A program made the translations under genes and the position numbers. From an uncultured Gemmatimonadota bacterium (lineage in GTDB: Bacteria; Gemmatimonadota; Gemmatimonadetes; Gemmatimonadales; Gemmatimonadaceae), in assembly GCA_946479895.1 (NCBI GenBank), contig CAMLHT010000248.1, forward strand, positions 1 to 5,500: a stretch of 5,500 bases of DNA, in the 5' to 3' direction. Below the pieces are notes generated by a model. The model ran no database searches. It was not told the origin of the DNA and worked only from the letters and a program-made list of their open reading frames with translations. Below are positions 100 to 5,500 of this stretch, in pieces; position 1 is the stretch's first letter; each line of letters starts with the position of its first letter.

Positions 100-1797
100 T
101 CACTCGCGCCGATACCCCGGCCCCCGCAACGCCCGGCCAGGGGTGGCCCCCGTGTGCCTTCCATCGGACACCACGGCAACTCCGTTCACCAGCACGTGAT
201 CCACTCCGACTGACAACTGGTGTGGCTTGTCGAACGTGGCCACGTCCCGGATGGTCTTCTCGTCGAAGACCACGATGTCCGCGAACATTCCCTCCCGCAG
301 CAGGCCGCGATCGCGCAGCTTCAGTCGCGCCGCCGTCGCTCCCGTCATCTTGCGCACGGCGTCCTCGAGGCGCAGGACGCTGTCGGTGCGGACGTACTTC
401 CCGAGTACCCGCGCGAACGTCCCGTACGAGCGCGGATGCACGAGGCTCCGCGCGCTGTCGGGATTCTGGCCGCCCGCGTCGCTGCCGATGATCACCCACG
501 GCTGCTTCAGCTGCATCGCGACGTTTTCCTCGCTCATGCTGAAGTTGATCTTCCCGAGGCCGTTGTTCTCGGCCAGCACGAGATCGATGACGACGTCCGG
601 CGCGGACTTCTGCATGTCCTTCATGATGTCGGCGATCAGCCAGCCCTCGTACTTCTTCAGCTCGGGGCGCCTGAAGCCGTTCACCGCGTGCGACGACTGC
701 GAGGGGTCGCAGGAGCCGCTCTTCGTCATCTCGGCCACGAGGCGGGCGCGCGTCGCCGGGTCGCGCAGGTTCTGCATCAGCTTTCCGCCCTCGGCCACCC
801 AGTCCGGGAAGCAGGAATCGAGACCGTTCCCCGAGGCGGCATACGGATACATGGTCGCCGCGACGTCCAGCCCGGACGCGCGGGCCGAGTCGATCTTGCG
901 GACCATGCCCGCGGCCTTCGGCCAGTTGGACCGGCCGGCGGCCTTGAGATGGTAGATGTCGACGGAGACGCCGCCCTCGCGTCCGATGCGGAACGCCTCG
1001 TCCATCGCCTCGAACAGCTGGTCGTCCTCCGACCGCATGTGGGTGATGTACGACCCGAAGTAGGGCGACATCGCCTTCGCCATCTCGACGAGCTCTCGCG
1101 TCGTGGCGTAGCTGCCCGGCGGGTAGATGAGCGCGCTCGAGATCCCGAAGGCGCCGTCGACCATCGCGTTGCGGACCACCGCGCGCATGGTGTCGAGCTC
1201 CGCGGGCGTGGGCTCACCGGCGCGCTGGCCCATCGCGTACGTGCGCACGGTGGTCGCGCCGAGGTACGACCCGACGTTCACCGAGTTGGGGTGGCGCCCC
1301 ATCGCGTCGAGCCACGCGCCGAAGCCGTGCGTGCCCTCGAAGGTGTGGTGCAGCGCGATGAGCTGCGGCAGGGTGTCGGGAAATTCCTCGAGCCTGAACA
1401 TCTCGGCGTTCATGGGCGCCGGAGTCGTGGACTCGCCGAGGATCTCGGACGTGACGCCCTGGGTCACCTTGCCGACCACTCGTCCGTCGCGCCACAGCAG
1501 CGCGTCCCACGAGTGGCTCTGGATGTCGATGAACCCCGGCGCCACCACGCGATCCCGCGCGTCGATCCGCCGCGACGCCGTCGCCCCGGCCAGTGATCCG
1601 GCCGGGCCGACCCAGGCGATGCGGTCGCCGCGCACGCCGACGTCCCCGTGGAACCAGGCATTGCCGGTTCCGTCGACCACCTTCCCGCCGGCGATGATGA
1701 CGTCGTATTGGCCGCCCTGCGGGATCGCGGTCGTCCGTGGCTGCCGCGCGCAGGCGGCGACTGCCACCGCGACGAGGAGGAGTCGTGCAAGTCTCAT
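100..1797 (-). CDS. Lipoprotein amidohydrolase, N-acyl-D-amino-acid deacylase (D-aminoacylase) family
   Basis: 565 residues. The N-terminus is a lipoprotein signal: Arg2/Arg5, a hydrophobic stretch (6-15) and lipobox VAAC with Cys16, so it is probably membrane-anchored outside the cytoplasm. YDVIIAGGKVVDGTGN (31-46) and VAPGFIDIQSHSW (85-97) are the amidohydrolase entry signatures. Family metal and active-site positions are seen at THMRSE (His253), YHLKAAGRSNW (His283) and IGSDAGG (Asp440), followed by HPRSYGTFARVL (454-465), MTGATAARL and the C-terminal RGLLREGMFADIVVFD (497-512). Known relatives hydrolyse N-acyl-D-amino acids or D-amino-acid peptides. Two positions differ from textbook D-aminoacylase: the first His of HxH is Gln93, and the metal-bridging Cys after GVTS is absent (GVTSEILGES). 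The exact substrate is therefore open. ATG 1797 has AGAGAGG four bases upstream. The gene follows the helicase by 60 bp, with a hairpin between them. Family is confident; specificity is not. Confidence 0.93.
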   Translation of the reverse strand: MRLARLLLVAVAVAACARQPRTTAIPQGGQYDVIIAGGKVVDGTGNAWFHGDVGVRGDRIAWVGPAGSLAGATASRRIDARDRVVAPGFIDIQSHSWDALLWRDGRVVGKVTQGVTSEILGESTTPAPMNAEMFRLEEFPDTLPQLIALHHTFEGTHGFGAWLDAMGRHPNSVNVGSYLGATTVRTYAMGQRAGEPTPAELDTMRAVVRNAMVDGAFGISSALIYPPGSYATTRELVEMAKAMSPYFGSYITHMRSEDDQLFEAMDEAFRIGREGGVSVDIYHLKAAGRSNWPKAAGMVRKIDSARASGLDVAATMYPYAASGNGLDSCFPDWVAEGGKLMQNLRDPATRARLVAEMTKSGSCDPSQSSHAVNGFRRPELKKYEGWLIADIMKDMQKSAPDVVIDLVLAENNGLGKINFSMSEENVAMQLKQPWVIIGSDAGGQNPDSARSLVHPRSYGTFARVLGKYVRTDSVLRLEDAVRKMTGATAARLKLRDRGLLREGMFADIVVFDEKTIRDVATFDKPHQLSVGVDHVLVNGVAVVSDGRHTGATPGRALRGPGYRRE

Positions 1798-1842: not shown

Positions 1843-1873
1843 AAATGGGGGGACAACTCAGGATGACAAATGG
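1836..1873. repeat. 13-bp direct repeat GGATGACAAATGG, two copies 25 bp apart
   Basis: Exact copies lie at 1836-1848 and 1861-1873. The left copy overlaps the right arm of the hairpin at 1816-1842; the right copy lies inside the end of the helicase reading frame. On the minus strand the right copy reads CCATTTGTCATCC and is followed by TGAG, so it encodes the final His-Leu-Ser-Ser and leads into the TGA stop. It looks like a partial or decayed second unit of the same repeat family, or a tandem duplication of the boundary. Confidence 0.7.
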
Positions 1874-4350
1874 TAGAACGACCGGACTTCCCCAACCACC
1901 TCCGCCACCGGCCCGATGAACCGCCGCGCCGGTGGCAGCGCGTCGATCAGCACCTGGCCATAGGCCTTCGACACGATGCGCGAATCGGCGATGAGCACCG
2001 CGCCCCGGTCCGTCGCGCTCCGGATCAGGCGCCCGAATCCCTGCTTCAGCCGCAGCGACGCGTGCGGAATCATGTACTCGGCGAATGCGTCTCCGCCATT
2101 CGCGACGATCGCCTCGCACCGGGCAGCGGTGATCGGCTCCGTCGGGACCCGGAACGGGAGCTTGGCGATCAGCAGACCCCGGAGCGCATCGCCGGGCACG
2201 TCGACGCCTTCCCAGAAGGAAGAGGTGCCGAGCAGCACGGCGCGGCCGGACTCGCGAAAGCGGGCGAGCAGCGAATCCCGCTGTTCCTCTCCGTGCACGA
2301 GCAGCGGCCACTTCCGGTCCAGGCCAGCCGCGCGCATGGCGGCGGCGGCCGCCCGCACCTCGCGGTGGCTCGTGAAGAGGATGAACACGCCGCCGTTCGC
2401 CGCCTCGACCAGGTCGGTCGCGAGCCTGACGACGGCGCGCGAATGGGCAGCAGGATCCACGTTCGGCGCCGGCAGGTCATCCGGGATCGCCAGGAGCGCC
2501 TGCCGGTCGAACCGGAACGGTGAGGGAAAGATCTCGGTGTAGGGCTCGAGCCGGCCCTCGAGTCCCAGCCGCTTCTTCAGGAACTCGAACTCAGGATCCG
2601 TCGCCAGCGTCGCGCTGGTGACGACGGTCGTCTTCGTGCGCGCGAAGAGGTCGTCGCGCAGCATCGGCGCCAGGTCGAGCGGAACCGACGCCGCGGTGAC
2701 TCCCTGATCGCGACCCTTGATCTCCAGCCAGCGCACCGACCCGTTGGCCGGCGGTGGGTTGAGGGTCTGGGCGAGCGCGTCGCCCGCTCCGGTGAGGCGC
2801 CGGGACACCGCGCGCACCTCGCCGATGAGGGAGAGCAGCGCGTCGTCCTGACGCTCGGCCGCCTCCATGCGCTCGCGAATGATCCGGAGCGAATCGAAGA
2901 TGATGTCGAGATCGGCGATCACGTCCTCGAGCGCGATGCTGAGTCCCGCCTTCCACAGCGGGTGAGTCGCGAAGTCGTCGGTGAGCCGCATGGTGGACTC
3001 GCCCCCGGTCATGACGGTCGCCAGCATCTCGAAGAGCGCCGCGCTCCGGCCGCGGGCGCGCTCGACGGCGGGATGCAGGCGATTGTGCACCTGGTCGAGG
3101 CTCGCGGCGCTGAGCATGTCGTCGCGGCTCTTCATCAGGTGCCCCGTGAGCGTCGGCAGCAGCCCCTTGCCCCGCCGCTCCAGGCGATTGAACAGCCGCT
3201 GCATGCCCCGGTTCGAGACGTTCGCGCCAAGGTGGGCCGCCGCCGCATCCTCGAGATGATGCCCCTCGTCGACGATCAGCCGCGCGTACGCCGGCAGCAC
3301 CGCGGCATCGCCCCAGTTGCCGGTGGTCCGGCGCACGGCGAGATCGGACATGAGCAGGTGGTGGTTGACCACGATCACATCCGAGTTCGCGGCGATGCGC
3401 CGCGCCTTGAAGACGAAGCAGCGGTCCCAGAACCTGCACTTCATCCGCTGGCAGAGATCCGGCTCGGCCACGACCTCGTCCCACACCTCGGGCTTCGGCG
3501 CGATGGGCAGGTCGCTCAGCGATCCGTCGGCGGTGCGATCGGCCCACGCGGTGATCGCGTCGAGGTCGGCCTCGGTTCCATCCTCGAAGAGCGAGACCCC
3601 CGCCATCCGCGCCTGGTCGAGACGATTCAGGCACAGGTAGTTCCGCCAGCCCTTGAGCAGCGCGAACCGCACCTTCTGGTCGGAGAGCGCTTTCTGGAGA
3701 AACGGCAGGTCCTTGCCGACGAGCTGCTCCTGGAGGTTGATCGTGTTCGTCGAGACGATCGTCCGCTCGTTGTTGGCCGCCGACCAGCGGAGCGCCGGCA
3801 CCAGGTAGGCGAGCGACTTGCCCACCCCGGTCCCCGCCTCGAGCAGCGCGACGCCACCGTCGTTGAACGTCCTCCCGATCCGCGTCGCCATCGCGCGCTG
3901 GCTGGCGCGGTCCTCATAGCGCTCGTGGCGCGCGGCGATCGGGCCGTGCGCGCCAAGGTCCGCGTCCAGCGACTCGAGGTCGAGCTCGGTGTAGCTGTCC
4001 TCCTTCGGGACCTCGACGACGACGTAGAGCCGGGTGGCCGAGTTGTCGATGATCGCGAACCCGACGCCGTCGTCGTGCAGTCGCGCGGCGACGCCAAGGT
4101 CGGCATCCGACGGTGACAGCTCACCCGACGGATGATTGTGGACGAGCATGTCGCCGCGATTGGCGACCCCCGGCAGGGCGAGCACCTGGTCGACGCTCCC
4201 GCGGGCGACGACGCGGGCAGTCTGGATCACGCCCTGATGATCGAGCGTGCAGACGAAGCACACTTCGCGGCCCCCGGCAAGCCGGATCGCCGCCCGCAGT
4301 CCATTGGCGGCGGAAGGGGCAATCCGGTTCAACGGAGGCGCGGCGGGCAT
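1858..4350 (-). CDS. RadC-like JAB domain fused to DinG/YoaA-type Fe-S ATP-dependent DNA helicase
   Basis: 830 residues. Residues about 15-118 form a RadC-like JAB/MPN domain with an apparently complete JAMM metal site: Glu29, HNHPSG (His71, His73) and Ser81/Asp84. A short linker leads to an XPD-family helicase. Its motifs are Q motif Gln151; Walker A EAGTGVGKS (171-179, Lys178); motif Ia near TNTINLQEQL (201-210); Fe-S cysteines Cys240, Cys300, Cys305 and Cys311 (the last three spaced C-x4-C-x5-C as in DinG); VNHHLL (328-333); Walker B DEGH (361-364); an Arch-like helical insert about 365-570; SATL (579-582); FILFTSH (656-662); SFWEGVDVPG (711-720); and QGFGRLIR (770-777). The family unwinds DNA 5'-3' using ATP and acts on R-loops, forks and G-quadruplexes in the cytoplasm. 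ATG 4350 is chosen because it lies just before the JAB homology. The frame stays open upstream to 5160, but that stretch overlaps the preceding gene and is low-complexity. The ribosome site is poor (TTGGGGG abuts the ATG). The stop lies inside a repeat. The role of the JAB domain is unknown. Confidence 0.93.
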   Translation of the reverse strand: MPAAPPLNRIAPSAANGLRAAIRLAGGREVCFVCTLDHQGVIQTARVVARGSVDQVLALPGVANRGDMLVHNHPSGELSPSDADLGVAARLHDDGVGFAIIDNSATRLYVVVEVPKEDSYTELDLESLDADLGAHGPIAARHERYEDRASQRAMATRIGRTFNDGGVALLEAGTGVGKSLAYLVPALRWSAANNERTIVSTNTINLQEQLVGKDLPFLQKALSDQKVRFALLKGWRNYLCLNRLDQARMAGVSLFEDGTEADLDAITAWADRTADGSLSDLPIAPKPEVWDEVVAEPDLCQRMKCRFWDRCFVFKARRIAANSDVIVVNHHLLMSDLAVRRTTGNWGDAAVLPAYARLIVDEGHHLEDAAAAHLGANVSNRGMQRLFNRLERRGKGLLPTLTGHLMKSRDDMLSAASLDQVHNRLHPAVERARGRSAALFEMLATVMTGGESTMRLTDDFATHPLWKAGLSIALEDVIADLDIIFDSLRIIRERMEAAERQDDALLSLIGEVRAVSRRLTGAGDALAQTLNPPPANGSVRWLEIKGRDQGVTAASVPLDLAPMLRDDLFARTKTTVVTSATLATDPEFEFLKKRLGLEGRLEPYTEIFPSPFRFDRQALLAIPDDLPAPNVDPAAHSRAVVRLATDLVEAANGGVFILFTSHREVRAAAAAMRAAGLDRKWPLLVHGEEQRDSLLARFRESGRAVLLGTSSFWEGVDVPGDALRGLLIAKLPFRVPTEPITAARCEAIVANGGDAFAEYMIPHASLRLKQGFGRLIRSATDRGAVLIADSRIVSKAYGQVLIDALPPARRFIGPVAEVVGEVRSFYHLSS

Positions 4351-4430: not shown

Positions 4431-5500
4431 CTACGGCGACGTCTTCAGCGGTTTCTTCTTCGCCGCCGGAAACAGCACGTTGTTCAGGATCAGCCGATAG
4501 CCCGGGGAGTTCTTGTGCAGCGACAGGTCCGTGGGCGGCGACCCGATCACATGCTGCGGATCCTCGGGGTCGTGGCCCCCATAGTACGTCCACGTTCCCT
4601 TGCCGTAGTCGCCGTGGATGTACTTCACCCAGGGCGCGTTCTGCTCGAACGCGAGGATGGTGACGCCGGGCTTGAGCCTCTCCTTCATGAAGCTCGTCGT
4701 CACGCCGAAGAAGTCCGGAATCGCCGCCCGATGGTCCTGCACGAGCATCGACGCGACGGGGTCGAACTTCGCCGAGAAGTTGAACAGCGTGAAGGTGCCG
4801 AGGTTCTGGCGGCGCCCGGGGACGTTGACCTGGTGGCCATCGATGTCGCTCATCGAGCTGACGTAGGCGGACGGCTCGAGCTTCGCGTCGCGGAACGCGA
4901 ACGAGCGCTTCCAGTCCATCTTCGCGTCGGCCGCGGGATCGGCCGGCGTGCCGTCGGCGAAGGCCTGCGCGATGTCCACGTTCCGCCCGGCGATCGCCAG
5001 CTCGAGCGTCTCGGTCGCGCCGCACATCGCGAACAGGAATCCGCCCTTCTCCACGAACGCCCGGATCCGCTCGGCCACGTCCTTCTTGAGCGCCGGGATG
5101 TTCGCGAAGCCCAGCGTCTTCGCCGTCTGGAGATTCGCGCTCGTCATCTCCACGTACCACGGCGTGTCGCGGTACGTGTAGTAGAACTTGCTCAGCTGGC
5201 CGGTGAAGTCCTCGTGGTGGAGGTGCAGCCAGTCGTACTTCGCCAGGTCACCGCGCTCGACCTCGAGATCGTAGATGGGCGTGTAGTCGATGCCCGCATA
5301 CTTGAGGGCGAGCGTGACGGCGTCGTCCCACGGCGCGGCGTCGGGCGGCGTATACACCGCCACCTTCGGCGCCTTCTCCAGGGGGATCGCGTCCATGTTC
5401 GCCCCGGTCATCTCCGCACGGATGCGATCGACCTGGGCATTGGTGAGCGGCTCGATGGTGATGCCGTCGAGCAGCGCCTGGCGGCGCAGCTCCGGAAGGT
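4431..5500 (-). CDS. 'Asparagine synthetase B'-annotated family protein, C-terminal part (5' end outside window)
   Basis: The first Met in the window is at 5411, but the frame continues open through 5500 and reads LPELRRQALLDGITIEPLTN before it, which looks like genuine family sequence. The start is therefore beyond the window edge, and about 356 codons are visible. The C-terminus carries the hallmarks I recall for this family: YYGGHDPEDPQH, PPTDLSLHKNSPGYRLILNN, then a Lys-rich tail. Counting from the Met at 5411, residues 15-60 (KVAVYTPPDAAPWDDAV) and 116-140 (GGFLFAMCGATETLEL, Cys130 in a nucleophile-elbow-like turn) resemble a class I glutamine-amidotransferase or ThuA-like fold. No SGGxDS PP-loop of true AsnB is visible. 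The database name is therefore weakly supported and the real reaction is unknown. Signal peptide and N-terminal features cannot be judged. The helicase gene starts 80 bp downstream on the same strand. Family membership is fairly sure; function is not. Confidence 0.8.
   Translation of the reverse strand, partial: LPELRRQALLDGITIEPLTNAQVDRIRAEMTGANMDAIPLEKAPKVAVYTPPDAAPWDDAVTLALKYAGIDYTPIYDLEVERGDLAKYDWLHLHHEDFTGQLSKFYYTYRDTPWYVEMTSANLQTAKTLGFANIPALKKDVAERIRAFVEKGGFLFAMCGATETLELAIAGRNVDIAQAFADGTPADPAADAKMDWKRSFAFRDAKLEPSAYVSSMSDIDGHQVNVPGRRQNLGTFTLFNFSAKFDPVASMLVQDHRAAIPDFFGVTTSFMKERLKPGVTILAFEQNAPWVKYIHGDYGKGTWTYYGGHDPEDPQHVIGSPPTDLSLHKNSPGYRLILNNVLFPAAKKKPLKTSP

Follow-up and report, generated by a model that had tools for sequence, protein, structure and literature searches.

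A RadC-type JAB domain fused to a YoaA/DinG-type iron-sulphur helicase in Gemmatimonadota, and relatives that lack the metal site or the domain

Introduction

The role of RadC-type JAB domains is unsettled in general, and a gene from an uncultured Gemmatimonadota bacterium that joins such a domain to a DinG-type helicase raises the question of what the domain does beside a DNA motor. The gene lies in the window, the stretch of 5,500 nucleotides of contig CAMLHT010000248.1 that was analysed as a whole. An earlier note on this DNA left open whether the architecture had been catalogued and supposed that it may be specific to Gemmatimonadota. The fusion is already catalogued and is not new: RadC-DinG fusions were mentioned in 2017 (PMC5512222), and the available text of a 2025 paper (PMC11981726) names 'RadC-like DinG' as a subgroup of DinG and models the protein of Desulfuromonas soudanensis. 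Lineage specificity must be given up as well, because D. soudanensis, according to that text, and Fusobacterium vincentii, as described below, have forms of it.

The value added to the published fusion is a set of natural variants and the decay of the JAB domain that they record. Intact metal sites, lost metal sites and lost domains occur around one helicase within one phylum and thereby supply matched controls for testing what the domain does. The main text of PMC11981726 contains no word beginning 'Gemmatimonad' or 'Fusobacter', and no mention of metal-less or domain-less relatives was found in it; nor was a description of decay of the domain found in the part of the literature searched, which was mainly open-access.

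The fusion gene

The minus-strand frame is unbroken from an ATG at 4350 through 830 codons to a stop at 1860-1858, and the plus-strand frame over 1858-4350 is interrupted by stops; the interval reported earlier, without a strand, is exact and belongs to the minus strand. Since the minus frame remains open upstream as far as 5160, the ATG at 4350 is a chosen start, and several homologues start at the same position. The features of the gene are collected in Table 1.

Table 1. Positions of the fusion gene, its parts and its upstream neighbour in the window
Feature	Positions	Strand	Basis
JAB-DinG fusion gene	1858..4350	-	830 aa + stop, one frame
RadC-type JAB domain (predicted), residues about 10-118	3997..4323	-	PF04002 30.5 bits, AF2, Foldseek
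E29 codon, putative JAMM glutamate	4264..4266	-	E in 103/103 loci with H71 and five ungapped positions
JAMM core HNHPSGELSPSDAD, residues 71-84 (H71, H73, S81, D84)	4099..4140	-	alignment
Acidic variable linker, residues 119-144	3919..3996	-	column entropy above both domains (residues 116-144)
YoaA/DinG-type Fe-S helicase (predicted), residues 145-826	1873..3918	-	NF053712 560.5 bits, PF13307 152.3 bits
Walker A GTGVGKS, residues 173-179	3814..3834	-	Lys in 116/116 loci
Span with four Fe-S cysteines C240, C300, C305, C311	3418..3633	-	last three Cys in 116/116 loci
Upstream neighbour, conserved 326-aa protein	4431..5411	-	no Pfam or NCBIfam family

Both halves of the protein were recognised by family models within the single frame, as the earlier note had claimed: Pfam places RadC (PF04002) on the N-terminal residues 22-93 with 30.5 bits (cut-off 22.1) and Helicase_C_2 (PF13307) on residues 646-807 with 152.3 bits. 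The best NCBIfam model is YoaA (NF053712), which covers residues 132-810 but, with 560.5 bits, does not reach its cut-off of 680. The helicase is complete, as had been reported, with Walker A from residue 173, DEGH at 361, motif VI at 770 and all four cysteines of the Fe-S site; this combination of a CCCC motif and motor motifs is one of the traits that define RadC-like DinG. At the column of C240 (3631-3633), 65 of the 116 loci have Cys and 51 have Ser; the other three cysteines are invariant.

The JAMM residues E29, H71, H73, S81 and D84 were located at the numbers given earlier, and the E...HxH...SxxD arrangement that marks JAMM/MPN+ sites falls within a predicted JAB fold. An AlphaFold2 model of residues 1-125 reached a pLDDT of 83.6 and a pTM of 0.78, and the top Foldseek match of the modelled domain was RadC (2qlc), with TM-scores that are moderate, about 0.5 for RadC. 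Judged from its sequence, the protein is almost certainly a YoaA/DinG-type Fe-S helicase that carries a RadC-type JAB domain at its N terminus, and a member of the RadC-like DinG subgroup.

The earlier note had allowed that the join might be an assembly error, with the two domains encoded by separate genes in close homologues. This is ruled out, because 103 of the 116 Gemmatimonadota loci aligned have the same fusion and so do the database proteins listed. Among the window's own protein and the best 120 of more than 7000 database matches, 121 of 121 carry H[NS]HP within the first 160 residues, and a stricter pattern fits 113 of the 121. The fusion is real, the product neither of chance nor of misassembly.

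Conservation of the JAB domain

Of 249 genomes from the phylum to which one match belongs, 208 match protein P0001 (E up to 0.001, fused or not); the other 41 have no match, and there either the gene or only the assembly may lack it. A scan of genome contigs gave four Gemmatimonadota loci, among them L003 from a Gemmatimonas sp. MAG, and one locus from Phytomonospora. From 120 loci collected, 116 were aligned, four (L100, L102, L112 and L122) being dropped for length; they form a non-random sample, into which rows whose match starts past residue 100 were fetched deliberately. The alignment also includes the window protein, a single protein from F. vincentii and 120 proteins from the database (each of three protein searches gave the best 120 of more than 7000 matches); all five JAMM residues are present in 224 of its 238 sequences. 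The 116 loci comprise 103 with an intact site, 10 without the JAB domain, 2 whose JAB domain has no metal site and 1 truncated by a contig end.

The 103 intact loci were chosen by the presence of H71 and the absence of gaps at the five positions, so that H71 is invariant by choice. In the same loci E29, H73, S81 and D84 are invariant, as are G27, F32, R50, G51, V56, G66, N72, P74, A88 and V111. Column entropy averages 1.21 bits over the JAB region (20-115), 2.20 in the linker (116-144), which has a net charge of -5 in the window protein, and 1.50 in the helicase (145-826). In seven of seven identity bins, covering 5250 of the 5253 pairs of intact loci, mean identity is higher in the JAB domain than in the helicase (for example, 0.65 against 0.57). 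By these sequence comparisons, the intact JAB domain evolves more slowly than the helicase in the sampled Gemmatimonadota. The invariance of E29 and the slow evolution of the intact domain point to chemistry in most of them.

Relatives without the domain

The JAB-less set consists of eleven genomes, ten from the aligned loci and one (G040) read afterwards. The helicase is kept in all eleven, and remnants of the linker persist in those read. Because the JAB-less rows nest among intact ones, the state is read as loss. It requires three changes on the helicase tree, and a single origin is rejected with a p-AU of 4.98e-6, a value that serves only as a guide because the JAB-less group was named after the first tree had been seen. 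Two loci, L106 and L141, form long branches in this tree. In the DinG helicase of L106 (1396-4140, minus strand) two SHOCT-like stretches occupy the N-terminal place of the JAB domain (DUF1707, 25.2 bits, below the cut-off of 27.6). One apparent loss, in G054, was set aside: contig ends truncate the gene there, and part of a JAB domain is found at the end of a different contig.

The domain was also sought as a separate gene. With the JAB region and linker as query against 15 genomes, no separate JAB gene of the fused type was found in the ten JAB-less ones. Weak hits in G131 and G109 were dismissed, as their frames resemble ABC-transporter ATPases (recognised by motif), and a hit in G021 is the DinG linker itself. 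Standalone RadC belongs to a different branch. Of 39 genomes examined, 36 (all but G107, G158 and G186) have a strong RadC match (116-151 bits) elsewhere than in the helicase gene, which rules out the fusion as a replacement for standalone RadC; among them are eight of the eight JAB-less genomes covered (G112, G075 and G040 lie outside that set). In the same set, PF04002 picked up the fused domain in 29 of the 30 genomes whose fusion is intact and in 0 of the 8 JAB-less ones.

Relatives without the metal site

In sequence comparison with the JAB region and linker of the window protein (E 1e-13 and 2e-8), two loci of one Gemmatimonadota lineage, L103 and L111, retain the JAB domain; they read SIHSE and RLQSE at the positions of the window protein's EHHSD, and both nest among intact sequences in the helicase tree. 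Among the best 120 of more than 7000 matches to the L103 protein, 7 are metal-less (P0243-P0249, one of them 97% identical to L103), 110 are intact and 3 are N-terminally short with HHSD. Five relatives gave an hhalign probability of 99.4. Within the L103-L111 pair, JAB identity (0.48) is below helicase identity (0.56), the reverse of the intact loci, and against intact proteins the mean identities of L103 and L111 are 0.30 and 0.23 in the JAB domain and 0.40 and 0.39 in the helicase.

A further form was met in F. vincentii, whose locus (L058, NZ_CP084075.1) is recorded as a 2.1-Mb 'plasmid' that is chromosome-sized and is probably the chromosome. The tblastn match spans residues 9-809 in one piece. 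Among the best 120 of more than 7000 homologues of this protein, 120 of 120 read SRTSE in place of EHHSD; they count as one lineage, because they are 95-100% identical and those named are Fusobacterium. Its N terminus gave a modest hhalign probability of 57 against the JAB profile (E 1e-4 for the single comparison), the controls, two unrelated N termini, giving about 0.3. In its model the helices and strands follow the same order as in the window protein (block pLDDT 81-95, residues 1-110), a likeness that is not independent because Gemmatimonadota rows in the underlying alignment favour a similar fold. On the continuous tblastn match, the profile match and the predicted structure, the F. vincentii fusion is a degenerate JAB-like form.

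Since the helicase persists without the metal site or without the whole domain, the JAB domain is an accessory module. As read from the alignments, the helicase is retained without it in some lineages, and most sampled lineages conserve the predicted JAB active site.

Neighbouring genes and mobile elements

Of 120 loci examined, 117 have over 700 bases of sequence on the upstream side of the helicase match. The 326-aa protein encoded upstream was matched in 100 of these 117, at 57-85% identity, and also in both metal-less loci and in some JAB-less ones. In L106 and L141 its stop overlaps the helicase start, where starts were chosen mechanically. It is a possible operon partner of the helicase. 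Searches of Pfam, NCBIfam, the PDB and plasmids gave no match to it; relatives of it may be annotated as asparagine synthetase B. Downstream of the fusion gene, on the same strand, lies an Amidohydrolase_3 gene (100-1797, minus strand), which had no match in L001-L004 (three of them with 6 kb on either side).

Polyvalent proteins encoded by mobile elements can contain RadC domains (PMC5512222), and PADLOC models for type IV CRISPR DinG match the helicase, as would suit a mobile-element or defence protein whose RadC domain counters or aids DNA transfer. We consider this highly improbable. Forty-two phage records match the protein, but the best 12 of the 42 all start at residue 131 or later, past the JAB domain, and two scans of viral contigs confirmed no relative. 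Among the best 40 of 1093 plasmid rows, only the chromosome-sized F. vincentii record enters the JAB domain proper; the first 179 residues, searched against plasmids, gave eight records (seven radC and one JAB-domain), none covering more than 80% of the query. The Csf4 model of type IV CRISPR DinG (TIGR03117) scores 119.2 against a cut-off of 400, and the upstream neighbour is common to 100 of 117 loci. A mobile-element origin was set aside, the phage, viral-contig and plasmid searches having lent it no support.

What the JAB domain may do

A shared JAB fold by itself shows no function. The earlier note took the fusion to imply that the domain works on the substrate of the helicase; judged from sequence this is plausible where the site is intact, but it is not universal, since the metal site or the entire domain has gone from some lineages.

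Characterised relatives translocate 5' to 3'. Our tentative proposal is that the helicase would load on single-stranded DNA and translocate, and that the JAB domain would act as a peptidase-type hydrolase on protein met by the motor. It would hold a single zinc, with H71, H73 and D84 as ligands and E29 as the general base. The bond that it hydrolyses would belong to something encountered or uncovered by the motor, most probably a polypeptide (a small protein tag, or a protein bound or crosslinked to DNA) and not the DNA backbone. A peptidase is preferred to a nuclease because of known JAB biochemistry (PMC5512222), the acidity of the domain and the analogy with FANCJ, which, in the available text of PMC12279946, unfolds crosslinked protein for SPRTN. 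Against a peptidase, RadC-type JAB domains are unlikely to have the groove for a ubiquitin tail (PMC5512222). The domain is acidic (mean net charge -4.6 over the 103 loci), but charge discriminates poorly, because the JAB regions of standalone RadC, roughly cut, are likewise acidic in 7 of 7.

A nucleic-acid role has been proposed from such fusions, the JAB domain sitting at the nuclease place of other helicases (PMC5512222); the available text of PMC11981726 likewise has nuclease domains at this position in other DinG subgroups, and Foldseek gave a weak match to the dsDNA deaminase DddB (9k3e_B, E 7.3e-3, probability 0.82). A metal-dependent nuclease or nucleotide-processing domain acting on helicase-opened DNA, the counterpart of the DEDDh exonuclease of ExoDinG, is in our judgement unlikely, if well short of negligible. 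If either a peptidase or a nuclease coupled to the motor proved true, the activity of one branch of a widespread domain would be settled.

The metal-less domains retained in L103, L111 and P0243-P0249 suggest a non-catalytic role, in those proteins at least. Extended to the family, this would make the JAB domain an interaction or regulatory module whose metal stabilises the fold, a reading with which the SRTSE of the F. vincentii lineage, its matching model and the SHOCT-like repeats in the JAB place of L106 agree. Against it stand the invariant E29 and the slower evolution of the intact domain; the JAMM glutamate, in the available text of PMC300881, forms a hydrogen bond and does not bind zinc. 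As a general account we find a non-catalytic module doubtful, though worth serious weight.

Returning to the peptidase, a more specific form, suggested by the FANCJ-SPRTN analogy, is that RadC-like DinG would be a DNA-protein crosslink machine in one polypeptide, the motor unfolding the adduct and the JAB domain cutting it; lineages with a dead or missing JAB domain would then hand the cutting to another protease. This is a long shot. Were it true, RadC-type JAB domains would gain a defined biochemical activity, and bacteria would have a protease coupled to a motor for such lesions.

Comparison with known systems

The closest known system is RadC-like DinG, for which the available text of PMC11981726 describes an N-terminal RadC-like domain with E, two H and D and a Fe-S helicase resembling YoaA; the window protein has both the RadC-like N terminus and the E, H, H, D centre. 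Further traits given there include an Arch domain and a genome without a HolC homologue. With standalone RadC (TIGR00608, 2qlc) the fused domain shares the predicted JAB fold, RG, HNHPSG and PSxxD, but it lacks the N-terminal half, the HPREVF segment and the DHxIxG motif, in a comparison with seven standalone sequences of which some frames are N-terminally incomplete and one (L139) is divergent. The RadC models TIGR00608 (24.9, cut-off 133.85) and NF000642 (28.4, cut-off 180) stay below their cut-offs and align only to residues 28-93.

The whole helicase core is shared with E. coli YoaA and DinG, neither of which is known to carry a JAB domain; the window protein differs from YoaA in falling below the equivalog cut-off (560.5 against 680). 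ExoDinG is the DinG of B. subtilis and S. aureus. No exonuclease family of Pfam matched the window protein up to E 1, as a DEDDh exonuclease would, and the alignment to the DnaQ-DinG model TIGR01407 begins no earlier than position 244 of the model. The likeness to ExoDinG lies in the plan, an extra enzyme-like N-terminal domain on a DinG helicase, with ExoDinG carrying an exonuclease where RadC-like DinG has the JAB domain, as the available text of PMC11981726 sets out.
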